This document shows, in pieces, positions 44,256 through 57,171 of a DNA stretch of 64,000 nucleotides; the stretch's first letter is position 1, and each line of letters opens with the position of its first letter. Location: the NCBI GenBank assembly GCA_944325415.1, contig CALUZW010000004.1:62001-126000 (forward strand). Direction: 5' to 3'. Source of the stretch: an uncultured Bacteroidales bacterium. GTDB lineage: Bacteria > Bacteroidota > Bacteroidia > Bacteroidales > UBA11471. The position numbers and the translations under genes are program-made. Under the pieces are notes generated by a model. That model was not told where the DNA came from. It did no database searches and saw only the letters and a program-made list of their open reading frames with translations.

Positions 44256-46043
44256 CTAAGAGAGTTCGAGACCGAAAATCTCTTTCAGGCGGTTGAGTTC
44301 GGGATTTTTCTCGGCCAGCAGCACAAAGCGTTCGCCGGGGCTGAAAGCCTTGGTGCGCTCCTGCCGTTCGCGTTCCCGCACCCGCATCGTCAGATGGGTG
44401 TTGTGCAGCTCGCTACGCAGGAAAGCAAGCAGGTCGGCCCCCCGGCCGTTGAGCTTGTCCATCTGCGCCCGATTGTCTACCACCACCTCGAAGGTCGTGG
44501 CATCGAGCAGTTGCGGCATACACAGGTACATTGTCTGCACCAGCACCGTCTCGGTGGGAATCTTCTTGGTAAACCGCAGCCACGCATCGTGGAGGGCATC
44601 GAGCGTAAAGGCTTCGTGCATCTCGGCCGGCGTGTCGGGCACGACGACGGGTACCTCCGAGGGGTCGGGTTCGACACCGTGTTTGAGCGAGATGCGGGGC
44701 ACCTTGCGCACCGTAGCCCGTGCCTGCGGTGCCGGTGGTGGGGGTGGCGATACTCGCACATGGGAGGCTGCGGGAGCCTCCTCCCGGGGCGGGGGAGGGA
44801 CAGACGGCCCGGGCACCTCGGCGGCCGGCTTATTTGTGTGCGCGGTGGTCGGCGGCACCGCTGCGGGAGGGTTTGCCCCTGTGGCCTGACGCTGAGAAGG
44901 AACGGCTACCGATGGTATCGGAGTCCCCGACAAGGGAGCGGCTTCGGCCGGCATTGCCAACGCGCACACCTTTATGAGCATCAGCTCCACAAGCAGCCGC
45001 TTGTTGTTGCTGATGCGGTAATCGAGGTCGCACCGGTTGCTCAACTCCATGGCCGTATAGAGAAACCGCTTGTCGCACCGGGCAGCCTGCCGGGCATACT
45101 GCTCGGCAACGGTGGCTCCCACGTCGAGCAGCGGCAGGGTGGCGGCGTCTTTGCTCACCATGAGGTCGCGGAAGTGGCTGCTCAGGCCGTTGACAAAGAG
45201 CTGGCCTCCGAATCCGGCACGCAGCACGGCATCGAAAACGAGCAGTGCTCCGGGCACGTCGCCGGCCAGCAAGGCATCGGTGAGCTTGAAGTAGTAGTCG
45301 TAGTCGAGAATGTTGAGATTCTCGATGGTGGCCTGGTAGGTAAGGTTTCCTCCTGAGGAGGCTGCCACCTGGTCAAAGATGGAGAGGGCATCGCGCATGC
45401 CGCCGTCGGCCTTGCGGGCAATGACATTGAGGGCCTCGTCTTCGACGGTATAACCCTCCTGCGAGGCGACATGGCGCAGGTGGTCGACAATGTCTTCGAT
45501 GGTGATGCGCTGGAAATCGTATATCTGGCAACGCGAAAGTATGGTGGGCAACAGCTTGTGCTTCTCGGTGGTGGCCAAGATGAAGATGGCGTGGCGCGGC
45601 GGCTCTTCAAGGGTCTTCAAGAAGGCATTGAAGGCGGCTGTCGAAAGCATGTGTACCTCGTCGATGATGAATACCTTGTAGCGTCCCAGTTGGGGCGGCA
45701 CACGCACCTTGTCGATGAGGCTGCGTATCTCGTCGACCGAATTGTTCGACGCGGCGTCGAGCTCGATAATGTTGTAGGAGCGCTGCTCGTTGAAGGCGCG
45801 GCACGACTCGCACTCGTTACAGGCCTCCCCCTCGGGGGTGGGGTGTTCGCAGTTGATGGTCTTGGCAAAGATGCGGGCACAGGTGGTCTTTCCCACTCCG
45901 CGGGTTCCGCAGAAGAGATAGGCATGGGCCAGCTTGCCGGTAATGACAGCGGCTTTGAGGGTCTGCACCAGAGCTTTCTGCCCCACCACCGAACGGAAGG
46001 TCGAAGGGCGGTACTTTCGGGCCGATACGATATAATTGTCCAT
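44256..46043 (-). CDS. dnaX: DNA polymerase III subunit gamma/tau
   Basis: This is a 595-residue clamp-loader ATPase from the ATG at 46041-46043 (MDNYIVSARKYRPSTFRSVVGQ). Walker A GTRGVGKTT is at about 46-54, and the C4 zinc module is CEHPTPEGEACNECESC, the Walker B DEVHML and sensor-1 ATTEKHK are intact. A proline-rich linker (about 375-465, extreme GC, many PPP runs) leads to a tau-like C-terminal domain. I see no clear slippery A-run that would produce a shortened gamma form. It is divergent from the GH10 gene. Confidence 0.95.
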   Translation of the reverse strand: MDNYIVSARKYRPSTFRSVVGQKALVQTLKAAVITGKLAHAYLFCGTRGVGKTTCARIFAKTINCEHPTPEGEACNECESCRAFNEQRSYNIIELDAASNNSVDEIRSLIDKVRVPPQLGRYKVFIIDEVHMLSTAAFNAFLKTLEEPPRHAIFILATTEKHKLLPTILSRCQIYDFQRITIEDIVDHLRHVASQEGYTVEDEALNVIARKADGGMRDALSIFDQVAASSGGNLTYQATIENLNILDYDYYFKLTDALLAGDVPGALLVFDAVLRAGFGGQLFVNGLSSHFRDLMVSKDAATLPLLDVGATVAEQYARQAARCDKRFLYTAMELSNRCDLDYRISNNKRLLVELMLIKVCALAMPAEAAPLSGTPIPSVAVPSQRQATGANPPAAVPPTTAHTNKPAAEVPGPSVPPPPREEAPAASHVRVSPPPPPAPQARATVRKVPRISLKHGVEPDPSEVPVVVPDTPAEMHEAFTLDALHDAWLRFTKKIPTETVLVQTMYLCMPQLLDATTFEVVVDNRAQMDKLNGRGADLLAFLRSELHNTHLTMRVRERERQERTKAFSPGERFVLLAEKNPELNRLKEIFGLELS

Positions 46044-46067
46044 AAAAGAGTGTTTCTGCAAGAAAGA

Positions 46068-46075
46068 CAAAGATA
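46068..46075 (-). promoter_or_regulatory. -7 promoter element of dnaX
   Basis: The minus strand reads TATCTTTG, 24 bp before the dnaX ATG. No -33 TTTG is found at the usual distance. Confidence 0.45.
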
Positions 46076-46109
46076 CGGAATTCTTGCAAATAAATGGCTT
46101 CGAGCGGAA

Positions 46110-46137
46110 TTTTCACGGTCTTTTCACGGTCTTTTCA
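46110..46137 (+). repeat. 11-bp tandem repeat upstream of the GH10 gene
   Basis: TTTTCACGGTC occurs twice in tandem (46110-46120 and 46121-46131), plus TTTTCA. It lies 77-104 bp before the GH10 -7 box, in the divergent region shared with dnaX. Direct repeats of about one helical turn can be regulator sites; this one is unassigned. Confidence 0.85.
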
Positions 46138-46213
46138 GAAGACAGGAGGCGCCTCGACATAGTCAACGGACGAAAACTTTGTTTTCTCCTTCCCTCTGCG
46201 CTCGGCTTTTCAC

Positions 46214-46221
46214 TATCTTTG
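46214..46221 (+). promoter_or_regulatory. -7 promoter element of the GH10 gene
   Basis: TATCTTTG is an exact -7 consensus, 29 bp before the ATG. The nearest TTTG (46178-46181) is 32 bp away, too far, so activator dependence is possible. Confidence 0.55.
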
Positions 46222-46250
46222 TATCACTCGTTACCTTTAATACTACAACC

Positions 46251-47993
46251 ATGAAAAAACTGTTTACACTACTCCTTTCGCTCTGTGCATTTTCGGCCTC
46301 TGCCTCGGTAGAAGAGAGAATGCTGCAAGATTTTGAATCCTATCAGGTGGGCGATGCTGTTGACATGTGGAACATTTACAACTCCGACATCTCCACCTCG
46401 TCGGCCATCGTGGCGGCCGACCCCAAAGATGCCTCCAACAAGGTGCTGCACATCAAGAGCCGCTCGTGGAACACGCTGGTGGCCCTGCACGACCTGGGCA
46501 TCACTGCGGCCGACCTCACCGGCGAAGGCCGTTTCCTCGTCTTTGACCTCTACCGCCCGTCGAGCGACGGCGCCTACAAGCAGCTGATGATTTACTGCGG
46601 CGACAAGCGGGTCTACATCGACGGCTCGTTTGTGTCGCAATGTCCTCCCGAACGCTGGACGACGAAGTGTTACCAGCTTGACGCTTCGACCGGCGAGAGC
46701 GGAACCCTCTGCCTGGGATTCAACTCGACCGATGCCGAATATTATATCGACAACGTACGCATTGTCGATGTGGCCGATTTCGGGTACGACCGTTCCGATG
46801 CCGAAAACTCGATACGCCACTACGCCGAACAGTGCGGGAAAAACATAGGTATTGCCGTAGCAACGGGCGATGCCAACTTCTTCTCGGCCATGAACGACGA
46901 CAGCAAGGTGATTACGCAGACGGTTTCGAGCCAGTTCAACATGATTGTGGCCGGCAACGAGATGAAGTTCGACGCCATGGAACCCGAACAGGGTAACTTC
47001 AAGTTTGAAACGGCCGACAAGCTGGTGGCCTTCGCCGAACAGCACCAGATGAAGGTGCGCGGACATACCCTCGTATGGCATTCGCAACTGCCCGGCTGGC
47101 TGGGTGCCGGCTCCGAAGGTGCGTCGAACAACAACAATTACACACGCGACGAGCTGCTCAAAATCATGGAAAACCACATCACCACCATCGTCTCGCACTA
47201 CAAGGGGCGCGTGCATGAGTGGGACGTGGTAAACGAGTGCGTGAGCGACAACAGTACGCAGACGCTTCGCAACTCAATATGGCAGAAGGTCATCGGCGAG
47301 AGTTTCATCGACTCGGCATTTGTCTACGCCCGCCGGGCCGACCCCGATGCAAAACTCTACATCAACGATTACAGCGTGGAGTTTGCCGGCAACAACAAGG
47401 CCGACCGCTATTATAATCTGGTGAAGAAACTGGTGGCTCGCGGCGTACCCATCGACGGCGTAGGATTGCAGGCCCACCTCTACCAAGGGTCGGTCGACTC
47501 GGCCAAACTCGACCGCAACATGAAACGCTATGCCGAGCTGGGGCTGAACTGCATCATCACCGAACTCGACATCAGCCTGCCCACAAGCCAGTTTGGCTCG
47601 CAGACGGCATACGAAAAGCAGGCCGCCGACTATCGTAAAATCGTCAACGTTACCCTCAACAACGCCAACTCTCCCTCGCTGCTGATATGGGGCAGCTCCG
47701 ATGCCTACTCCTGGATTCCCGGGTCGACCAACTACACCCGGGGCGAGCCGCTGCTCTTCGATACCTACTTCTGTGCCAAACCGGCCTACTACGCCGTGCG
47801 CGACGCATACAGCGCCCGCGCCACAACAATGGCTCTCGAAGAGGTACTCAATGCCGTACCCTCGGAATCGCTCTATGTAGATGTCTACAACATTCTGGGA
47901 CAACCGGTGAGACTGCACATGCACCGCTCGCAGATATACTCCCTGCCGCAAGGCACATACATCATCGACGGAAAAGTGATGAACATACGCTGA
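46251..47993 (+). CDS. GH10 endo-1,4-beta-xylanase with CBM-like and sorting domains
   Basis: The ATG at 46251 gives 580 residues with a signal peptide (MKKLFTLLLSLCAFSASA). Residues about 22-168 look like a carbohydrate-binding beta-sandwich (FESYQVGDAVDMWNIYNS to YIDNVRIVDVADFG). The GH10 barrel follows: GNEMKFDAMEPEQGNF, VRGHTLVWHSQLPGWL, acid/base Glu329 in WDVVNE, and nucleophile Glu438 in IITELDIS. The last 45 residues (LYVDVYNILGQPVR, then LPQGTYIIDGKVM) resemble a type IX secretion C-terminal sorting domain. It probably cuts xylan at the cell surface. Open frame upstream overlaps dnaX on the other strand and was rejected. Confidence 0.93.
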   Translation: MKKLFTLLLSLCAFSASASVEERMLQDFESYQVGDAVDMWNIYNSDISTSSAIVAADPKDASNKVLHIKSRSWNTLVALHDLGITAADLTGEGRFLVFDLYRPSSDGAYKQLMIYCGDKRVYIDGSFVSQCPPERWTTKCYQLDASTGESGTLCLGFNSTDAEYYIDNVRIVDVADFGYDRSDAENSIRHYAEQCGKNIGIAVATGDANFFSAMNDDSKVITQTVSSQFNMIVAGNEMKFDAMEPEQGNFKFETADKLVAFAEQHQMKVRGHTLVWHSQLPGWLGAGSEGASNNNNYTRDELLKIMENHITTIVSHYKGRVHEWDVVNECVSDNSTQTLRNSIWQKVIGESFIDSAFVYARRADPDAKLYINDYSVEFAGNNKADRYYNLVKKLVARGVPIDGVGLQAHLYQGSVDSAKLDRNMKRYAELGLNCIITELDISLPTSQFGSQTAYEKQAADYRKIVNVTLNNANSPSLLIWGSSDAYSWIPGSTNYTRGEPLLFDTYFCAKPAYYAVRDAYSARATTMALEEVLNAVPSESLYVDVYNILGQPVRLHMHRSQIYSLPQGTYIIDGKVMNIR

Positions 47994-48016
47994 TACGGTA
48001 TATACACCATCAACAC

Positions 48017-48044
48017 ATACGGCCGGACCACAATCCGGCCGTAT
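48017..48044 (+). terminator. terminator of the GH10 gene
   Basis: ATACGGCCGGA (48017-48027) pairs perfectly with TCCGGCCGTAT (48034-48044) over a 6-base loop. The downstream sequence is only moderately T-rich. Confidence 0.7.
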
Positions 48045-48098
48045 TATGTATCAGATAATAAACCGGTTACACGACACGGATTTTCTTCTCGGGAAACA

Positions 48099-48131
48099 TT
48101 TGCCGCAACAACTCTTTTTTTATTATCTTTG
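48099..48131 (+). promoter_or_regulatory. promoter of the IbrAB-like module
   Basis: TTTG at 48099-48102 and TATCTTTG at 48124-48131, 21 bp apart, are a full consensus match. The first gene of the module starts 47 bp further on. Confidence 0.7.
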
Positions 48132-48178
48132 CTTCGGCAGGGAAGAGAAGCCCTGCCACAACAAATGTTGAGAGATAC

Positions 48179-48598
48179 ATGAAAATCGAAATTCTGGGGG
48201 GCACATCGCCCCGCCTGTACAAGCTCGTAGCTCCGCTTGTCATGAATGCGGCGGTTCTGCGACAAAACAACAACTATCCCTACAAGACATCTTCGCGACA
48301 CGAATGGCTCGTAGGACTCGACGACGACGGAAAAACCGTGAGAGGATTCTTTCCCATGGAACGGCGCGAGGGATATTACTACCTCAACAACTACTACGTC
48401 CCGGCCGATTCGGAGGAGGAACTGTTGCACATCTTCATCGAAGAGGCCATCACACTCTACGCCCCAATCGGCCCCTTGGTCGCCGTCGTACATTCCCATC
48501 ATGTACCCGTATTTCAGAAAAAAGGATTCCTGCCCGAACGGGAGTGGAAACTATATGTAAAAATGCGATATGGAAAGAGCGATGGAAAGACGTCGTAA
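48179..48598 (+). CDS. GNAT-fold-like protein, first gene of the IbrAB-like module
   Basis: This is a 139-residue soluble protein. The order is an N-terminal strand-helix (MKIEILGGTSPRLYKLVAPLVM), a central hairpin (HEWLVGLDDDGKTVRGFFPMERREGYYYLNNYYV), a helix, and VPVFQKKGFLPEREWKLYVKMRYG. The VFQKKGF element followed by a final strand is typical of the C-terminus of GNAT acetyltransferases. The pyrophosphate loop (R/QxxGxG/A) is absent, so it may bind but not transfer acetyl groups. It overlaps the next gene by 29 bp, which implies translational coupling. The function is not known. Confidence 0.68.
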   Translation: MKIEILGGTSPRLYKLVAPLVMNAAVLRQNNNYPYKTSSRHEWLVGLDDDGKTVRGFFPMERREGYYYLNNYYVPADSEEELLHIFIEEAITLYAPIGPLVAVVHSHHVPVFQKKGFLPEREWKLYVKMRYGKSDGKTS

Positions 48599-49880
48599 TG
48601 TCTATGAGGCCGCACTCTCGCGCATAGAAAAGATATTCTCCGACTTCGACAACATCTATGTATCCTTTTCGGGAGGGAAAGACAGCGGCGTACTGCTCAA
48701 CCTCTGCATCGACTACATCAGACGCCACAAGTTGAAACGCCGCATCGGTGTCTTCCACATGGACTACGAGGTGCAGTACTCGGCCACGTTGCAGTATGTC
48801 GAAAAGGTCTTCTCGGAGAATACCGACATACTCGACATTTACCGGGTGTGCGTGCCCTTCAAGGTATCGACCTGCACCTCAATGCACCAGAGTTATTGGC
48901 GCCCGTGGGACGAGGAAATGAAAGAAATCTGGGTGCGCGAGATGCCCCGTTCGGCGTTCCGCAAAGAAGATTTCGACTTCTTCTCCGACGACCTGTGGGA
49001 CTACGACTTCCAGATGAGGTTTGCCGAGTGGCTGCACCGCTACAAGCGGGCCGCACGCACCTGCTGCCTGGTAGGTATCCGCACCCAGGAGAGCTTCAAC
49101 CGCTGGCGGGCCATACACAGCGACAAAAACTACTGCTGCTACGAGCGCTTCAAGTGGACGCGCAAAATTGCCGACGACGTGTACAACGCCTACCCCATCT
49201 ACGACTGGCGCACGACCGATGTGTGGGTGGCCAACGGCCGCTTCGGCTGGTCCTACAACCACCTCTACGACCTCTACTACCAGGCCGGTGTCTCTCTCGA
49301 AAAACAACGGGTGGCCAGCCCCTTCATCTCGGCGGCCATTCCCAGCCTGCAACTCTACCGGGCCATCGACCCCCAAATGTGGGGCCGCATGATAAACCGG
49401 GTGAACGGCGTGAACTTTGCCGGCATCTACGGCAATACCTCGGCCATGGGCTGGTACAAGGTAAAGTGCCCCAAAGGCATGACCTGGGAAGATTATATGC
49501 ACTTCCTGCTGAGTACCCTGCCCGACGACATCAGGCAGGGCTATCTCGACAAGCTCAGTGTGAGCATCGCCTTCTGGCGAAACAAGGGGGGCTGCCTGGC
49601 CGACGAGACCATAGAGAAGCTGCGCCGCATGGGGGTGGAGATTTCGGTGGGCGACTCTACCAATTACAAGACCGACAAGAAACCTGTGCGCATGGAGTAT
49701 CTCGACGATATCGACATCGAAGAGTTCAGAGAGCTGCCCTCGTTCAAGCGTATGTGCATCTGCATTCTCAAAAACGACCATGCCTGCAAATACATGGGGT
49801 TTGCTCCCACCAAAGACGAGAAAGAGCGTCGCAATCAAATCATGGAAAAGTATAAGAAATATTATGGCGAAGACAGATAA
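48570..49880 (+). CDS. IbrA-like PP-loop protein (PAPS reductase-like, DUF3440)
   Basis: This is a 436-residue protein. The ATP-pyrophosphatase loop SGGKDS is at residues 34-39 (YVSFSGGKDSGVLL), as in the PAPS reductase and DndC superfamily. A family core follows (RTCCLVGIRTQESFNRWRAI, PIYDWRTTDVWVAN). The C-terminal half, with KNDHACKYMGFAPTKDE, fits the DUF3440/IbrA family. The redox ECGLH tail of true sulfate reductases is missing, so simple sulfate reduction is unlikely. E. coli IbrA and IbrB are paired regulators of phage-linked surface proteins. The gene overlaps both neighbours (29 bp and 17 bp). It may adenylate or thiolate a nucleic acid or nucleotide, but this is inference. Confidence 0.87.
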   Translation: MERAMERRRNVYEAALSRIEKIFSDFDNIYVSFSGGKDSGVLLNLCIDYIRRHKLKRRIGVFHMDYEVQYSATLQYVEKVFSENTDILDIYRVCVPFKVSTCTSMHQSYWRPWDEEMKEIWVREMPRSAFRKEDFDFFSDDLWDYDFQMRFAEWLHRYKRAARTCCLVGIRTQESFNRWRAIHSDKNYCCYERFKWTRKIADDVYNAYPIYDWRTTDVWVANGRFGWSYNHLYDLYYQAGVSLEKQRVASPFISAAIPSLQLYRAIDPQMWGRMINRVNGVNFAGIYGNTSAMGWYKVKCPKGMTWEDYMHFLLSTLPDDIRQGYLDKLSVSIAFWRNKGGCLADETIEKLRRMGVEISVGDSTNYKTDKKPVRMEYLDDIDIEEFRELPSFKRMCICILKNDHACKYMGFAPTKDEKERRNQIMEKYKKYYGEDR

Positions 49881-50391
49881 GGAACCCCGGTACAGAAGTC
49901 CGGTATATAAAGTAATAGCCGTCCCGGTCGACAAAGTGGTGGCCAATGCCTACAACCCCAATGTGGTGGCGCCTCCCGAGATGAAGCTGCTCGAACTCTC
50001 GATATGGGAAGATGGCTACACGATGCCCTGTGTGTGTTACTATGTGGCCGACAAAGATGTGTATGAGCTGGTCGACGGCTATCACCGGTACATGGTGATG
50101 AAGACCTCGCGCCGCATCTACGAGCGCGAGCATGGCCTGCTGCCCGTCGTCGTCATCGAGAAAGACCTCTCCAACCGCATGGCCTCGACCATACGCCACA
50201 ACCGCGCCCGCGGAACGCACAATGTGGAACTGATGAGCGAAATCGTATCGGAGCTGACCCGCGCCGGTATGTCCGACCGTTGGATAGAGCGCAACATCGG
50301 CATGGACAAGGACGAGCTGCTGCGGCTGAAACAGATTTCGGGTCTGGCCGCTCTCTTTGCCGACAAAAATTTCTCGCTTACCGACGACTGA
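49864..50391 (+). CDS. IbrB-like ParB/Srx-fold protein
   Basis: The ATG at 49864 gives 175 residues. Residues about 15-105 form the ParB N-terminal (sulfiredoxin-like) fold: VPVDKVVANAYNPNVVAPPEMKLLELSIWEDGYTMPCVCYY, then ELVDGYHRYMVMK, where DGYHRY replaces the GERR/DGxHR nucleotide-binding motif, and VVVIEKDLSNRMASTIRHNRARGTH. Residues about 120-165 look like an HTH (VSELTRAGMSDRWIERNIGMDKDELLRL). ParB folds bind or hydrolyse NTPs or cut DNA; which applies is not clear. It overlaps the IbrA-like gene by 17 bp, as these two genes do elsewhere. No parA or parS is nearby, so chromosome partition is unlikely. Confidence 0.82.
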   Translation: MAKTDKEPRYRSPVYKVIAVPVDKVVANAYNPNVVAPPEMKLLELSIWEDGYTMPCVCYYVADKDVYELVDGYHRYMVMKTSRRIYEREHGLLPVVVIEKDLSNRMASTIRHNRARGTHNVELMSEIVSELTRAGMSDRWIERNIGMDKDELLRLKQISGLAALFADKNFSLTDD

Positions 50392-50430
50392 CCCCGGCAA
50401 CCATTACCGAGAGGTTCTGTGGCAATACAG

Positions 50431-50464
50431 GAGAGGCGGCCGGAAATCTTTCCGGCCGCCTCTC
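50431..50464. terminator. bidirectional terminator of the IbrAB-like module
   Basis: A perfect 16-bp inverted repeat, GAGAGGCGGCCGGAAA (50431-50446) with TTTCCGGCCGCCTCTC (50449-50464), lies between the convergent genes ending at 50391 and 50507. Confidence 0.88.
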
Positions 50465-50506
50465 TCTTTAAGTAAATGTGGCAGAGACAAGCGCCGCCCC
50501 TCCCGG

Positions 50507-51403
50507 TCAGCGCAGACGCAGCACGTCGCCCACACGGGGTACCCTCTCGCCCGAAATCTTGTTGCGGCTCAGGAGCCGTTTGAGCTTGATGCCGTATTTC
50601 TGGGAGACATCGTGCAGCGATTCACCCGGTTGGAGGGTGTGTGTGGTATAGGGTTTCTGAGCCCGACGGCGTTTGGCTTTGAGGTAGACGATGTCGCCGG
50701 CTTTGAGTTTGTAGCCGCGAGGGAAGTCGTTGTAGCGACGTATCTGGTAGGCATACAGTTCAAATTCGCGGGCAATGAGCCGCTGGGTATCGCCGTCGCG
50801 GGCCACGACGTAAGGCAGCCCCCATTTCGAATCCATGTCGTGATATTCATAGCCTTTGGGCATTCGGGGCAATCCCTTTCCGTCGTAACGATGGAGGCCA
50901 TAAAGCTCGATGGTCTGTATCAGCTTGCTGGCATAGGCCTTGTCGGTGGCGTAGCCGCAGCGCTTCAATCCGTGGGCCCACCCCTTGTAGTCGGTAATGT
51001 CGAGCTTGAAGAGCTTTTCATAGCGGGGGCTCTTTGTCAGGAAGAGGGCATGGTCTTCGTACGACTCTTTGGGGTTGCGGTATTTCCTGAAACACTCGCC
51101 CTTTTCGTCGTCGTCGTGATAGACACGCTTACCCTCCCACGAGTTGTGGCACTTGATGCCGAAGTGATTGTTCGACTTCCGGGCCAGTTCGCTGGTACCT
51201 GCCGCCGATTCGAGCAACCCTTGGGCAAGCGTGATGCTGGCCGGTATCTTGTAGCGCTTCTGGTGGTCAATGGCGATATCTTTGTACTTGTTGATGTAAT
51301 CGAGATATATCGGGTTTTTCGTCTGGGCCGAGACGAAAACGGCGATAAAAAGGAAAATCCCTATAAACGGAAGGCGGGAACGTACATACATATTCTCGGA
51401 CAT
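50507..51403 (-). CDS. glucosaminidase-LysM cell-wall hydrolase
   Basis: This is a 298-residue secreted protein (MSENMYVRSRLPFIGIFLFIAVFVSAQ signal). Residues about 35-175 are a FlgJ-type N-acetylglucosaminidase: IPASITLAQGLLESAAGTSELARKSNNHFGIKCH, where Glu in LLESAAG is the expected catalytic residue, and the second motif FRKYRNPKESYEDHALFL. Two LysM-like peptidoglycan-binding segments follow (GDTQRLIAREFELYAYQIRRYNDFPRGYKLKAGDIVYLKAKRR and HTLQPGESLHDVSQKYGIKLKRLLSRNKI to the end). It remodels the cell wall in the periplasm. It is transcribed alone, divergently from cdd. Confidence 0.92.
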   Translation of the reverse strand: MSENMYVRSRLPFIGIFLFIAVFVSAQTKNPIYLDYINKYKDIAIDHQKRYKIPASITLAQGLLESAAGTSELARKSNNHFGIKCHNSWEGKRVYHDDDEKGECFRKYRNPKESYEDHALFLTKSPRYEKLFKLDITDYKGWAHGLKRCGYATDKAYASKLIQTIELYGLHRYDGKGLPRMPKGYEYHDMDSKWGLPYVVARDGDTQRLIAREFELYAYQIRRYNDFPRGYKLKAGDIVYLKAKRRRAQKPYTTHTLQPGESLHDVSQKYGIKLKRLLSRNKISGERVPRVGDVLRLR

Positions 51404-51530
51404 AAAATCTTCTTATCAATTTAAGGCCGGCCGGCAGAATGTATCGGAAATTCCGATTATATTTGTAGAATATAGGATTCGGTTTGGGATAAAGTTCAAG
51501 TAAACTTGGCTTTCTCCTCTCACCTTTCAC

Positions 51531-51538
51531 TATATTTG
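51531..51538 (+). promoter_or_regulatory. -7 promoter element of cdd
   Basis: TATATTTG, 29 bp before cdd, has a partial CTTG at 51505-51508 upstream. A second TATATTTG at 51458-51465 on the same strand could be an alternative start site. Both lie in the 164-bp divergent region. Confidence 0.5.
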
Positions 51539-51567
51539 TAAGGAATCCGATATAAAAATATCTTCCT

Positions 51568-52056
51568 ATGGCAAAACAACTTCAACTATCGGCAAAGATA
51601 ACGGTTTGTCGGTACAATGAGTTAACCGACAGCGAAAAAAAATGGGTCGATGCAGCCCGTGAAGCCGCAAAAAAGGCCTATGCACCCTATTCGCGATTCT
51701 GCGTCGGCGCGGCTGTGGCACTGGCCGACGGAGAGATAATCACCGGTAACAACCAGGAAAACGCCTCTTATCCCGAAGGGTTGTGCGCCGAACGGGTGGC
51801 CCTGTTTGCCGCCGGAGCTGCCGCCGGCGCCCGGCCGGTGGCCATCACCCTGGCGGCCATCGCACCCGATGGCAAAAGCCCCCTCATGCCCGTTACCCCC
51901 TGCGGCGGCTGCCGGCAGGTCATGCGTGAGGTCGAGAGCCGCTACGGAGCCCCTCTGCGCGTACTCATGTGCGGCGCCGAAGAGATATACATCGCCGCAT
52001 CGGCCGGCGACCTGCTGCCGCTGAGTTTCGAACTGTCGGCAACGCCGCAAGCGTAA
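51568..52056 (+). CDS. cdd: cytidine deaminase
   Basis: This 162-residue homotetrameric zinc enzyme of pyrimidine salvage converts cytidine to uridine. The active-site segments are YAPYSRFCVGAAVALADG, NQENASYPEGLCAERVALFAAGA (zinc Cys and proton-shuttle Glu) and PCGGCRQVMREVE (two zinc cysteines). About 25 extra N-terminal residues compared with the short bacterial form are typical of Bacteroidota. A GH43 gene begins 107 bp downstream with no promoter consensus between, so read-through into it is possible. Confidence 0.95.
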   Translation: MAKQLQLSAKITVCRYNELTDSEKKWVDAAREAAKKAYAPYSRFCVGAAVALADGEIITGNNQENASYPEGLCAERVALFAAGAAAGARPVAITLAAIAPDGKSPLMPVTPCGGCRQVMREVESRYGAPLRVLMCGAEEIYIAASAGDLLPLSFELSATPQA

Positions 52057-52163
52057 CGGCCGGCAGCCTCCACAAGCAGGGAGCCTCCGCCCTGCATTGC
52101 ACCCGTCGTCTCCGGCAGGCAATACAGCCCTACACCGGGAGCCGGCAGGAAAAACTGAATACC

Positions 52164-53768
52164 ATGAAAAAAAGATTTCTAACGGTTGCCATAGCCCTAA
52201 TCGGCCTGATAGCTGGCCGTATGGCAACCGCTCAATCGGGCGACAACTACGACGGAACGTTTACCAACCCCGTCGTGTGGGCCGATGTTCCCGACCCCGA
52301 CGTGATACGCGTGGGCGACGACTTCTACCTGGTAAGTACCACGATGCACCTCATGCCGGGCGCCCCCATCATGCACTCCAAAGACCTGGTCAACTGGGAC
52401 ATCATGAGCTACCTCTACGACCGTATCGACGAAAAACCTCAATATGACCTGATGGAGGGCACCGTCTACGGACGCGGACAGTGGGCCACCTCGCTGCGTT
52501 ACCGCGACGGTCGCTACTACGCCTATTTCTCGCCCAACGACACCCCTTTCAAAGGCTACCTCTACTCCACCGACAATCCCTCCGGCAAGTGGTCGCTCGT
52601 AGCCCGACTGCCCCATTTTCACGACGCCTCGCTCTTCTTCGACGACGACGGACGGGCCTATGTCTTCTACGGCACGGGGCAACTGCGGGAACTCAAACCC
52701 GACCTGACCGGGGTACTGCCCGGCGGGATAGACACCACCCTCTTTGTGCGCGACGCCGAAGAGACCGGACTGCTCGAAGGGAGCCGCGTCGTCAAACACG
52801 ACGGCCGCTACTACCTGCTGATGATTTCATGGCCGGTCGGTGCGCCCCGCCGGCAGGTATGCTACCGTGCCGACCGCATCACGGGCCCGTATGAGAAACG
52901 GGTGATTCTCGAAGATGCGTTCGCGGGCTTTCCCTATGTGGGGCAAGGTACCATCGTCGACGACGGCCGGGGCAACTGGTACGGCATCATCTTTCAAGAC
53001 CGCGGAGGCGTGGGCCGTGTGCTTACCCTCATGCCCTGCCGGTGGGTCGACGGCTGGCCCCTGCTGGGCGACGAGTCGGGCCGGGTACCCGAGACCATGG
53101 ACAAACCCGTGGCGGGATTTTCTTCGCCGAGGCTGACGGTGAGCGACGATTTCAATGCCAAAGACCTGAAACGCAACTGGCAGTGGAACCACAACCCCAT
53201 CGACAGTTGCTGGTCATTAACGGCACGCAATGGGTTCCTGCGCCTCTCGACAGGCCGCGTGGCAGAGAATCTGTTTCTGGCACCGAACACCCTCACCCAA
53301 CGCATGGAGGGGCCCCGGTGCCGGGGTATCGTCGCCCTCGACCTCGCGGGCATGAAAGAGGGCGACGTGGCAGGATTTGCCGCGTTCAACAGCGATGCGG
53401 GCGTATTGGCAATTACCTGCCGGGACGGGAAAAAACAGCTCTCGATGCAGAGCCAGTCGGTGAGCCTGACCGAAAAGGAGAAACGTGTGTCCGACGTCAA
53501 AACAAGGACACACGAGACCGTTGCGCTCACCTCCGACACCCTCTACCTGCGCATCGACGGCGATTTCAGGGTAGGCCGCGACATCGCCACCTTCTATTAC
53601 AGCCTCGACAATAAGCATTGGAGACAAATCGGCGCGGATTTTAATATGATATTCGACTACCGGCGCTTCTTCATGGGCACCAAATTTGCCCTCTTCAACT
53701 ATGCCACTCAGGCTACGGGCGGATACATCGACGTCGACTTCTTCGACTATAAACGCCTCGGCGAATAA
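52164..53768 (+). CDS. GH43 family glycoside hydrolase (xylosidase/arabinofuranosidase type)
   Basis: The ATG at 52164 gives 534 residues, signal peptide MKKRFLTVAIALIGLIAGRMATAQ. The five-blade propeller shows FTNPVVWADVPDPDVIRVGDDFYLVSTTMHLMPGAPIMHSKDLVNW (base Asp), HDASLFFDDDGRAYVFYG (pKa-modulating Asp) and GLLEGSRVVKHDGRYYLL (acid Glu). The C-terminal 200 residues (from about 330) are a concanavalin-like beta-xylosidase C-terminal domain. A secreted exo-acting enzyme on arabinoxylan fragments is likely; subfamily and exact substrate cannot be fixed here. It leads a run of three hydrolases. Confidence 0.9.
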   Translation: MKKRFLTVAIALIGLIAGRMATAQSGDNYDGTFTNPVVWADVPDPDVIRVGDDFYLVSTTMHLMPGAPIMHSKDLVNWDIMSYLYDRIDEKPQYDLMEGTVYGRGQWATSLRYRDGRYYAYFSPNDTPFKGYLYSTDNPSGKWSLVARLPHFHDASLFFDDDGRAYVFYGTGQLRELKPDLTGVLPGGIDTTLFVRDAEETGLLEGSRVVKHDGRYYLLMISWPVGAPRRQVCYRADRITGPYEKRVILEDAFAGFPYVGQGTIVDDGRGNWYGIIFQDRGGVGRVLTLMPCRWVDGWPLLGDESGRVPETMDKPVAGFSSPRLTVSDDFNAKDLKRNWQWNHNPIDSCWSLTARNGFLRLSTGRVAENLFLAPNTLTQRMEGPRCRGIVALDLAGMKEGDVAGFAAFNSDAGVLAITCRDGKKQLSMQSQSVSLTEKEKRVSDVKTRTHETVALTSDTLYLRIDGDFRVGRDIATFYYSLDNKHWRQIGADFNMIFDYRRFFMGTKFALFNYATQATGGYIDVDFFDYKRLGE

Positions 53769-53824
53769 CACAACCTCCGCCCCTCTCTACACAAGAATGT
53801 CCAATCTCCCTTAAACATATACTC

Positions 53825-55774
53825 ATGAAAAAACCGATATTGATACTGCTGACATTGTGTTGCGTATCTCTCCTGCATGCAGGAGAGGTGAAGTTGTCGG
53901 GCCCCGATGGGCGGCTCACGGTCGTCGTCTCCGACAGCGGAGGGTATGCCTCCTACCGCATACTGTACGACGGCATGACCTTTCTCGACGCCTCGCCCCT
54001 CGGACTCACTACCGACGCGGGCGACTTCACCCGCGACCTGCGCCTGGGCAATGCCTCCGACGCGTGTGTCGTCGACGAGACATACAGCCTCAGAAACAGC
54101 AAGAGAAGCGAGATACGTTACCTCGCCCACATAAGAGAGATACCTTTTGTGCAGGACGGGAAAACGGTCTTCAAGGTAATGTTCAGCGTAGGCAACAACG
54201 ATGTGGCGTTCCGCTACACCGTCTGCCGCACCGGCGAGGCACTGTGCGGCGTGGTGCGGCAGGAGGCCACGGGGTTCAGGCTCCCCGCCGGAAGCACTAC
54301 ATTTCTCTGCCCGCAAAGCCCGGCCATGAAGGGATTTGCCCGCACAACCCCGAGCTACGAGACCCCCTACACCCCCGACGACACACCGGGCAAGAACGGA
54401 CTGGGCGAGGGGTACAGCTTCCCCGCCCTCTTCCGTATTGCCGACCGGGGCTGGGTGCTGATTTCGGAGACGGGTGTCGACAGCCGCTACTGCGCCTCCC
54501 GTCTCCTGGGACACGCCGGCGGACTCTATACCATCGGGTTTCCGCAAGAAGAGGAGTTCAACGGCAACGGCTCGGCCTCGCCGGGCATCACTTTGCCGGG
54601 AGAGACGCCGTGGCGCACCATCACCGTAGGAGGCACCCTCGCACCGGTGGTCGAGACGACAGTGGCCTTCGACCTCGTCGAGCCGCTCTATGAGCCATCG
54701 AAAGAGTATGCCGACGAGTATGGCTGCGGCACATGGAGCTGGATTATCGCCGGAGACGGCAGCATGAACTACGCCGAGCAGAAACGCTACATCGACTTCT
54801 GTGCCGAGATGGGCTACCGCACGGTACTTGTCGATGCCTGGTGGGACACCCGCATCGGCTACAAGGGTATCGAAGAACTGGCCGCCTACGCCCGCTCCAA
54901 AGGGGTGGGCCTCTACCTGTGGTACAACTCCAACGGTTACTGGAACGATGCCCCGCAGGGGCCGCGCGGCAAGATGGACAACCTCATCAGACGCCGCCGG
55001 GAGATGAAGTGGCTGCAACAGACCGGCATCAAGGGCATCAAGGTCGACTTCTTCGGGAGCGACAAGCAGGCCGCCCTGCAACTCTACGAGGAGATTCTGG
55101 CCGATGCCAACGACTACGGCCTGCTGGTCATCTTCCACGGTTGCACCCTGCCCCGCGGTTGGGAACGCATGTATCCCAATTATGCCGCCAGCGAAGCGGT
55201 ACTGGCCAGCGAGAACATGAACTTCACGCAAAGCAGTTGCGATGCCGAAGCCTTCAACGCCTGCCTCCACCCTTTCCTGCGCAATACGGTGGGAAGCATG
55301 GATTTCGGCGGCAGCACGCTCAACCGCTACTACAACGCCGGGAACCGTCCGGGCGGAAGCCGGCGGGTTACCTCCGAGGTCTTCGCACTGGCCACGGCCA
55401 TACTGTTCCAAAGCCCCGTGCAGCATTTTGCTCTGGCACCCAACAACATGATCGACGCCCCGGCCTGGGCCATCGACTTCATGAAGGCGGTGCCCACGAC
55501 CTGGGACGACACCCGCTTCATCGATGGATACCCGGGGCAGTATGTAGTGCTGGCCCGCCGCCACGGCGACATCTGGTATATCGTGGGGGTGAATGCCCGT
55601 AAAGAGACGGTGCGCCTCACCCTCGACCTGCCCATGTTCGAGGCCGGCGAGACAGTTACCGTCTATGACGACAACAAGCGGCTCGAAGGAAGGGTGCGTA
55701 CCGTCCGAACAGGAAAAAGACAACAATTCTCCATCGCCATTCCCACCAACGGCGGAGTGGTCATTCACAACTGA
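53825..55774 (+). CDS. GH97 family glycoside hydrolase (retaining type)
   Basis: This is a 649-residue secreted enzyme (MKKPILILLTLCCVSLLHA signal). An N-terminal beta-sandwich (about 20-270) is followed by the (beta/alpha)8 domain with YGCGTWSWIIAGDGSMNYAEQKRYIDFCAEMGYRTVLVDAWWD, GIKGIKVDFFGSDKQ and a C-terminal beta domain. The Asp in KVDFF (Asp408) matches the nucleophile of retaining GH97 enzymes, which are alpha-galactosidases; inverting SusB-type alpha-glucosidases use glutamates instead. Alpha-galactosidase is therefore the best guess. It sits between two GH43 genes with 56 and 14 bp gaps. Confidence 0.92.
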   Translation: MKKPILILLTLCCVSLLHAGEVKLSGPDGRLTVVVSDSGGYASYRILYDGMTFLDASPLGLTTDAGDFTRDLRLGNASDACVVDETYSLRNSKRSEIRYLAHIREIPFVQDGKTVFKVMFSVGNNDVAFRYTVCRTGEALCGVVRQEATGFRLPAGSTTFLCPQSPAMKGFARTTPSYETPYTPDDTPGKNGLGEGYSFPALFRIADRGWVLISETGVDSRYCASRLLGHAGGLYTIGFPQEEEFNGNGSASPGITLPGETPWRTITVGGTLAPVVETTVAFDLVEPLYEPSKEYADEYGCGTWSWIIAGDGSMNYAEQKRYIDFCAEMGYRTVLVDAWWDTRIGYKGIEELAAYARSKGVGLYLWYNSNGYWNDAPQGPRGKMDNLIRRRREMKWLQQTGIKGIKVDFFGSDKQAALQLYEEILADANDYGLLVIFHGCTLPRGWERMYPNYAASEAVLASENMNFTQSSCDAEAFNACLHPFLRNTVGSMDFGGSTLNRYYNAGNRPGGSRRVTSEVFALATAILFQSPVQHFALAPNNMIDAPAWAIDFMKAVPTTWDDTRFIDGYPGQYVVLARRHGDIWYIVGVNARKETVRLTLDLPMFEAGETVTVYDDNKRLEGRVRTVRTGKRQQFSIAIPTNGGVVIHN

Positions 55775-55788
55775 AACACCCAAAAGCG

Positions 55789-57171
55789 ATGAAACCCTCA
55801 TCAAAAAAGTTTATCTCGACCACACTGACTATTCTTGCCCCGATATGGCTGTCCGCACAGAACCCCATCGTGCAAACCTGCTACACCTCCGACCCAGCAC
55901 CGATGGTACACAAAAGTACCCTCTACCTCTACACGGGACACGACGAAGACGGTGCCGACTTTTTCTGGATGCAGGAGTGGCGCGTCTATTCGACCCGGGA
56001 CATGGTCAACTGGACCGACCACGGCTCCCCGCTGGCCATCGAATCGTTTGCCTGGGCCGATGACCGGGCTTGGGCCGCACAGTGCATCGAGCGCAACGGT
56101 AAGTTCTACTGGTATGTGTGCCTGCACTCGAAACTCTCAAACACAATGGCCATTGGCGTCGCCGTAAGCAAGTCGCCCACGGGGCCCTTCAAAGACGCCC
56201 TCGGCAAACCGCTCTATGAGGGCAGTTGGGATTATATCGACCCCACCGTCTTCATCGACGACGACGGACGGGCCTTCCTCTACTGGGGAAATCCCAACCT
56301 CTACATGGCCGAACTCAACGAAGACATGGTATCGTTCAAAGGCGAGGTGCAAAAAATAGAACAGACCGTCGAGAGTTTCGGGGCGCCCAATCCCGAGAAA
56401 CGGCTAAAAGGGGTAAAATATCCCGACACCTATACCGAAGGCCCTTGGCTCTGCAAACGCGGCAACAATTATTACCTGCTCTATGCTGCCGGCGGGATAC
56501 CCGAACACATTGCCTACTCGATGGGCCCGAGCCCCACGGGGCCGTGGCGATACATGGGCGAAGTCATGCCCCTGCAAGAGACCGGCTCCTTTACCAACCA
56601 TGTAGGAGTCATCGATTACAAAGGAAATTCCTACCTCTTCTACCACACCGGCAAGTTGCCGGGCGGCGGAGGATTCGGTCGCTCGGTAGCCGTAGAACAA
56701 TTTGAATATAACGCCGACGACACCTTCCCCCTCATCTATGCTACCGACAAAGGGGTAGACCCGGTAGGCACCCTCAACCCCTACAAGCGCACCGAGGCCG
56801 AAACGATGGCATTCTCTCGCGGGGTGAAATCGGAACCCAATGCCACGACAGGAATCTACATTGCCGACATACACGACGGCGACTACATCAAAGTGCGTGC
56901 GGTCGACTTCGGCCACAGTAGCCCGAAAAAATTCCATGTCGTCGCCGCAAGCGCACGGCGCGGCGGGACCATCGAAATGCGGCTCGACAGCATCGGCGGG
57001 AGCATCATTGCCAAAGTCGATGTTCCACCGACGGGAGGCTGGGAACAATGGAAGAGATTAAAATGCAATACGACCGGAAATGTTTCGGGCGTTCACGACC
57101 TCTATTTCGTATTTAAAGGGCGGAAAGGATGTAAACTCTTCAATCTTGACTGGTGGAGATTCGATAATTAG
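55789..57171 (+). CDS. GH43-CBM6 glycoside hydrolase
   Basis: This is a 460-residue secreted enzyme, signal peptide MKPSSKKFISTTLTILAPIWLSAQ. Propeller motifs: YTSDPAPMVHKSTLYLYTGHDED, DYIDPTVFIDDDGRAFLYWGNPNLYMAELN and TEGPWLCKRGNNYYLLYAAGG, giving the base Asp, middle Asp and acid Glu. From about 325 a CBM6 domain follows (RTEAETMAFSRGVKSE to LFNLDWWRF), which usually binds xylan or beta-glucan. The combination suggests arabinofuranosidase or xylosidase action on polymeric arabinoxylan. Only 14 bp separate it from GH97. The start 3 codons after the GH97 stop region is the only one that gives a signal peptide. Confidence 0.92.
   Translation: MKPSSKKFISTTLTILAPIWLSAQNPIVQTCYTSDPAPMVHKSTLYLYTGHDEDGADFFWMQEWRVYSTRDMVNWTDHGSPLAIESFAWADDRAWAAQCIERNGKFYWYVCLHSKLSNTMAIGVAVSKSPTGPFKDALGKPLYEGSWDYIDPTVFIDDDGRAFLYWGNPNLYMAELNEDMVSFKGEVQKIEQTVESFGAPNPEKRLKGVKYPDTYTEGPWLCKRGNNYYLLYAAGGIPEHIAYSMGPSPTGPWRYMGEVMPLQETGSFTNHVGVIDYKGNSYLFYHTGKLPGGGGFGRSVAVEQFEYNADDTFPLIYATDKGVDPVGTLNPYKRTEAETMAFSRGVKSEPNATTGIYIADIHDGDYIKVRAVDFGHSSPKKFHVVAASARRGGTIEMRLDSIGGSIIAKVDVPPTGGWEQWKRLKCNTTGNVSGVHDLYFVFKGRKGCKLFNLDWWRFDN

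Follow-up and report, generated by a model that had tools for sequence, protein, structure and literature searches.

The three overlapping genes at positions 48179–50391 of the window (the whole stretch of DNA analysed, 64,000 nucleotides of a contig from an uncultured Bacteroidales bacterium) form a conserved module of the IbrA/IbrB type that has three components, its GNAT subunit being unexpectedly linked to a phage helicase. DUF3440 and ParB-like genes are found as pairs in E. coli K-12 and Listeria as well as in gut Bacteroidales and numerous phages, and no biochemical activity is recorded for them in the literature searched. With the GNAT component, which can be fused to the helicase in phages and keeps a fixed position in Bacteroidales, the orphan pair gains a defined set of partners and a testable chemistry. 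We propose, at a probability of roughly 0.45, that the trio may carry out an NTP-gated, adenylation-dependent modification of DNA, as a helicase-less chromosomal variant of a phage module. The locus is organized as follows:

48099–48131, forward strand: Bacteroidota-type promoter, TTTG-N21-TATCTTTG (-33/-7), by pattern match
48179–48598, forward strand: gene 1, GNAT-fold protein of 139 aa (ORF, AlphaFold2 and Foldseek)
48570–49880, forward strand: gene 2, PP-loop ATP-pyrophosphatase of the IbrA/YbdN family, 436 aa (ORF, Pfam, PHROGs, AlphaFold2 and similarity to YbdN)
49864–50391, forward strand: gene 3, ParB/Srx-superfamily protein of the IbrB/YbdM family, 175 aa (ORF, PHROGs and similarity to YbdM)
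50431–50464, forward strand: perfect 16-bp hairpin 3′ of gene 3, intrinsic terminator (arm complementarity)

The promoter, the three overlapping genes and the perfect hairpin listed by the first-pass annotation of this DNA are all present. The pattern TTTG-N21-TATCTTTG, which we take to be the Bacteroides-type promoter consensus, occurs 5 times in the window versus 0.62 expected by chance, a number reached in 0 of 100 shuffles. The hairpin arms (50431–50446 and 50449–50464) are complementary at 16/16 positions, enclose a loop of 2 nt and are followed by TCTTT. The annotated overlaps of 29 and 17 bp are correct for starts at 48570 and 49864. Several relatives begin nearer to the NVYE motif, which is conserved, so that the ATG at 48582 is a possible alternative start of gene 2; this would reduce its overlap with gene 1 to 17 bp. 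Comparison with a same-genus orthologue gave dN/dS values of 0.18 (gene 1), 0.06 (gene 2) and 0.05 (gene 3); all three are therefore real genes under purifying selection, gene 1 being the fastest-changing. Among 74 complete trios with clean ORFs, genes 1 and 2 overlap in 85% and genes 2 and 3 in 84%, most commonly by 4 bp, and the three genes are presumably translated as a unit.

Genes 2 and 3 had been assigned to the IbrA and IbrB types, and their similarity to E. coli YbdN and YbdM supports this assignment. Gene 2 resembles YbdN over nearly its full length (30% identity, E = 1e-64), matches PHROG 2302 (2.2e-102) and contains the Pfam domains DUF3440 (6.8e-92) and PAPS_reduct (1.6e-12), both above the Pfam cut-offs (306.6 bits versus 25 and 48.2 versus 22.5, respectively). 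The SGGKDS motif (residues 34–39) is invariant or nearly so across trio, phage and E. coli proteins, as are D65, E67, R171, E174, R178 and D212. A motif check detected ECG[LIV]H neither in gene 2 nor in 162 relatives, in agreement with the annotated DUF3440-type PP-loop protein devoid of ECGLH. The absence of this C-terminal catalytic cysteine motif argues against an assimilatory PAPS/APS reductase (CysH). Three other cysteines, C94, C396 and C406, are invariant in 75/75 trio PP-loop proteins, and are found together in 26/30 helicase-type proteins versus 7/52 phage proteins without a recognised helicase. C94 is missing in YbdN, whereas all trio proteins have it, and C396 is missing in many phage members. 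A universal Fe-S site formed by the three residues was rejected, as only those 7 of the 52 non-helicase phage members have all three. When 163 PP-loop proteins were placed in a tree, the 75 from trios grouped together, with a single row from a phage contig among them that is probably the orphan prophage gene of locus L137. At this locus (L137:5944-7272), prophage-like genes surround a solitary PP-loop gene of the trio type that is accompanied by neither GNAT nor ParB genes.

The AlphaFold2 model of gene 2 (pLDDT 90.4) has CysH, FAD synthase, TilS, NcsA and LarE as Foldseek neighbours, which cover about half of the protein. Sequence search of solved structures gave no relative for gene 2. These structural neighbours could indicate that the target is RNA (for instance tRNA), a small molecule or a cofactor, as could the cysteines invariant in the trio proteins and the joint appearance of ybdNM and cys genes in an expression table for a regulator mutant of E. 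coli (PMC9068703). We consider such a target unlikely, because the ParB-like partner, and the SNF2 partner of the phage relatives described below, indicate DNA, because gene 2 has neither CxxC nor ECGLH, because C94 and C396 are not kept in YbdN and in many phage members, respectively, and because none of the Foldseek matches listed corresponds separately to the DUF3440 half.

Gene 3 is closer to its E. coli counterpart, YbdM (49% identity, E = 4e-54, nearly full length), and matches PHROG 2159 (1.2e-72) and the Noc structure 7ol9 (E = 0.001). It carries the motifs DGYHR and TIRHNRARG, corresponding to DGxHR and RHNRARG, which together with the full-length similarity to YbdM place it in the IbrB/YbdM family; ParB motifs are conserved at about 100% among the relatives. 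The annotated ParB/Srx fold is retained, but the putative C-terminal HTH was not recovered as a separate domain; the support for it comes from aligning gene 3 with ParB-like families over their full length.

Gene 1 has no family match in Pfam, PHROGs, NCBIfam or PADLOC. Its AlphaFold2 model (pLDDT 94.8) adopts a GNAT fold, with ElaA and GCN5 as Foldseek matches (probability 1.00, TM 0.66–0.70). As the annotation had noted for this GNAT-like protein, the acetyl-CoA loop (acyl-CoA pyrophosphate loop, Q/R-x-x-G-x-G/A) is missing, and the pattern is found anywhere in only 3/80 trio GNATs. The trio GNATs keep a motif, LY.LVAPLVM...RQNNNYPFKTS...W, which maps in the model to the alpha1-alpha2 and beta2 region. 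This region lines the acceptor site in GNATs, and a ligand or partner site therefore seems to be retained in the predicted gene 1 product.

To follow the trio across genomes, one genome per GTDB species was scanned for relatives of gene 1; 161 were found, and 80 were kept. All but three of these carry Bacteroidales titles; the exceptions are one unassigned bacterium and two records with Firmicutes names (Roseburia and Ruminococcus), which may be misnamed bins. The order GNAT, PP-loop, ParB is complete in 77/80 loci and the remaining 3 run to a contig end, so that the three-gene order is conserved across genomes. Together with the usual gene overlap, this bears out the earlier description of the trio as a unit. 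The PP-loop gene is broken into two ORFs in 3/77 loci (L068, L109 and L131), by frameshift or assembly error. In a set of 393 genomes from the order, the GNAT-like gene was found in 27 and a PP-loop relative in 34; the DUF3440 PP-loop gene adjoins the GNAT-like gene in 27/27 cases. The PP-loop gene is present in 7/7 genomes of the genus. In a wider phylum sample DUF3440 was found in 3/297 genomes, and the E. coli and Lactococcus lactis controls were positive. Genes 1, 2 and 3 are passed on together as a single unit. Carriers include gut species amenable to laboratory work, among them Phocaeicola vulgatus ATCC 8482, which harbours two copies of the trio (L072 and L099).

The neighbours of the trio vary by genus and, as far as their translations are readable, are mainly housekeeping genes. 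We looked for the prophage or defence genes that might accompany it, and found none enriched: the 108 neighbouring proteins contain no recurrent defence family (PADLOC) or structural phage family (PHROGs), so that the phage link comes from the relatives of the trio and not from its context. Three "plasmid" matches were dismissed as a sign of mobility, all being typed as non-mobilizable; among the matching records, one from Parabacteroides has chromosome-like genes and one from Bacteroides is mixed. The patchy presence of the trio (27/393 genomes) could suggest an anti-phage defence or toxin-antitoxin system, as could the partial, weak similarity of gene 2 to BrxP and DndC among the PADLOC models and the detection of a Listeria DUF3440/ParB pair by the TASmania screen, through guilt by association (PMC7020466). 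Such a system appears very improbable to us. PADLOC matches among the neighbours are scattered, with no family in more than 2 of them, the trio contains neither a nuclease nor any other effector, every genome of the genus has the PP-loop gene, and the same module is present in phages and is thus not host-specific.

PP-loop and ParB genes are common in viral contigs, in which 135 loci of two main types remained after dereplication. The first type (53/135 loci) has an SNF2-like helicase, mostly directly upstream, and includes for example that of Streptococcus phage PYS40; in these modules the homologues of genes 2 and 3 are adjacent and in the same order as in the trio. In the second type, most loci have an ectoine-synthase-like cupin together with a protein similar to the C-terminus of DUF3440. 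Homologues of the gene 1 GNAT are present in 13/53 loci with the helicase versus 0/82 loci without it (Fisher p = 2e-6). Four of these phage GNATs were compared with a profile built from trio proteins only and matched it with E values of 1e-6 to 1e-10. The trio-type GNAT pattern gave no match in viral contigs; the phage homologues surfaced only by profiles around PP-loop loci. In L287 and L289, helicase and GNAT are fused in a single protein, as confirmed with Pfam, and in one Bacteroidales genome (L041) genes for a helicase, a GNAT-like protein, a PP-loop protein and a ParB protein form a single row. A CoA-type loop (YRQQGVF, YRKQGV) is retained in several of the phage GNATs and is missing in others and, as described above, in the gene 1 product.

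Since the GNATs are confined to helicase loci, and given the fusions and the row of genes in L041, we infer from these sequence comparisons that the GNAT is an original component of the helicase-type module. On the simplest reading, the Bacteroidales trio looks like a chromosomal variant of this module that lost the helicase. The earlier statement that no helicase partner is present is accordingly valid for the trio itself but not for its phage relatives, where the helicase is present and in some cases forms one protein with the GNAT. Members of the phage SNF2 helicase family are also widely found away from PP-loop/ParB modules, and helicase adjacency may therefore partly reflect a replication-module context. 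A "DNA helicase" annotated beside the PP-loop gene of Nebkiss is not recognizable as one from its sequence and was taken out of the helicase profile.

Additional genes were observed around the phage pairs. The ectoine-synthase-like cupin is present in 62/82 helicase-less loci versus 6/53 helicase loci; at L181:7293-7760 it lies between the PP-loop and ParB genes (PF06339, 2.9e-45). Proteins of about 85 aa that resemble the DUF3440 C-terminal motif PSYKRICIAILKND adjoin PP-loop/ParB genes at L207:2844-3116, L169:3535-3816 and about 20 other viral loci, and the position matching C406 is usually not a cysteine in them. Short phage ORFs matching the PP-loop profile had been considered as parts of split genes; this was rejected, as they are separate proteins of this kind.

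The proposal of DNA modification draws on several known systems. PP-loop enzymes adenylate or thiolate their targets. ParB-fold proteins bind CTP, ATP or GTP, depending on the protein, and a ParB-acetyltransferase fusion binds GTP (PMC12704722). The ParB-like DpdB accompanies base insertion by DpdA (PMC12839542), and in Dnd phosphorothioation, as in the trio, a PP-loop enzyme (DndC) that modifies the DNA backbone is found with a ParB-superfamily protein, DndB (PMC10853773). Mom of phage Mu is a GNAT-superfamily protein that modifies adenine in DNA, and it shares with other DNA-modifying GNATs and with the trio the association of a GNAT fold with DNA-acting partners (PMC7824862), although no sequence match between Mom and the trio GNAT was found and the latter has no acyl-CoA loop. 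By analogy, the ParB-like protein would be a DNA-binding switch toggled by NTP, the PP-loop enzyme would activate the target, probably a base, by adenylation, and the GNAT-fold protein would position the acceptor or take a donor other than acetyl-CoA. The outcome could be an epigenetic mark or altered gene expression. We favour this reading because the gene order is conserved, gene 1 has a GNAT fold, the PP-loop and ParB residues are invariant and the GNAT is tied to the phage helicase. Against it, no nucleotide modification by any member is reported in the literature searched, and the only effects known for the E. coli pair are on gene expression. The trio itself is not accompanied by a helicase, methylase or nuclease, and its GNAT lacks the CoA loop.

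The main rival to DNA modification is regulation. The PP-loop and ParB proteins would then be DNA-bound co-activators of transcription that respond to an ATP/NTP signal with no covalent change of DNA, with the GNAT-like protein as a ligand sensor. IbrA/IbrB and YbdN/YbdM belong to the same two families as genes 2 and 3, in the same order, and IbrAB of E. coli ECOR-9 was reportedly described by Sandt in 2002 as an activator of prophage eib genes. A phage annotation likewise names the PP-loop/ParB pair co-activators of prophage gene expression, and the loss of the CoA loop from the trio GNAT would suit a sensor. Of ybdNM it is known only that CitR targets it (PMC9068703); it has no GNAT gene, whereas in the trio a GNAT-like gene precedes and overlaps the pair. 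Regulation nevertheless strikes us as doubtful. The complete, invariant PP-loop active site and the ParB motifs argue for catalysis, and a GNAT, an EctC-like cupin or a helicase beside the phage pair fits enzymology better.

A DNA-modifying or regulatory role, as put forward in the first-pass annotation, remains the best inference, but the comparison made there with DndC-type thiolation is not specifically supported. Gene 2 scores 21.4 bits with the DndC model, for a cut-off of 290.4. Thiolation is possible and is not favoured here, because no desulfurase or DndD/E is adjacent (inspection of the window ORFs showed no DndA, DndD or DndE beside the trio), and C94 is not kept in YbdN, nor C396 in many phage members. 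The invariance of all three cysteines in the trio proteins nevertheless leaves some room for sulfur chemistry. In a more detailed scheme of DNA modification, which we regard as rather unlikely, the base adenylated by the PP-loop enzyme would receive an acyl or amino group from the GNAT-fold subunit at a site picked by the ParB NTP switch, joined in phages by the SNF2 motor; the trio would be a domesticated epigenetic version of this machinery, and the modification one so far undescribed.

Two further observations concern gene surroundings. Translations read by eye show that the region around the trio (window positions 44256–57171) contains a xylanase-like and several glycosidase-like genes, resembling polysaccharide degradation, a cytidine deaminase-like gene and a dnaX-like gene on the minus strand. 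In Fusobacterium phage phiFN37 (L044), a second ParB-like gene adjoins a queuine tRNA-ribosyltransferase-like gene near the PP-loop/ParB/helicase cluster, a pair reminiscent of DpdA/DpdB.
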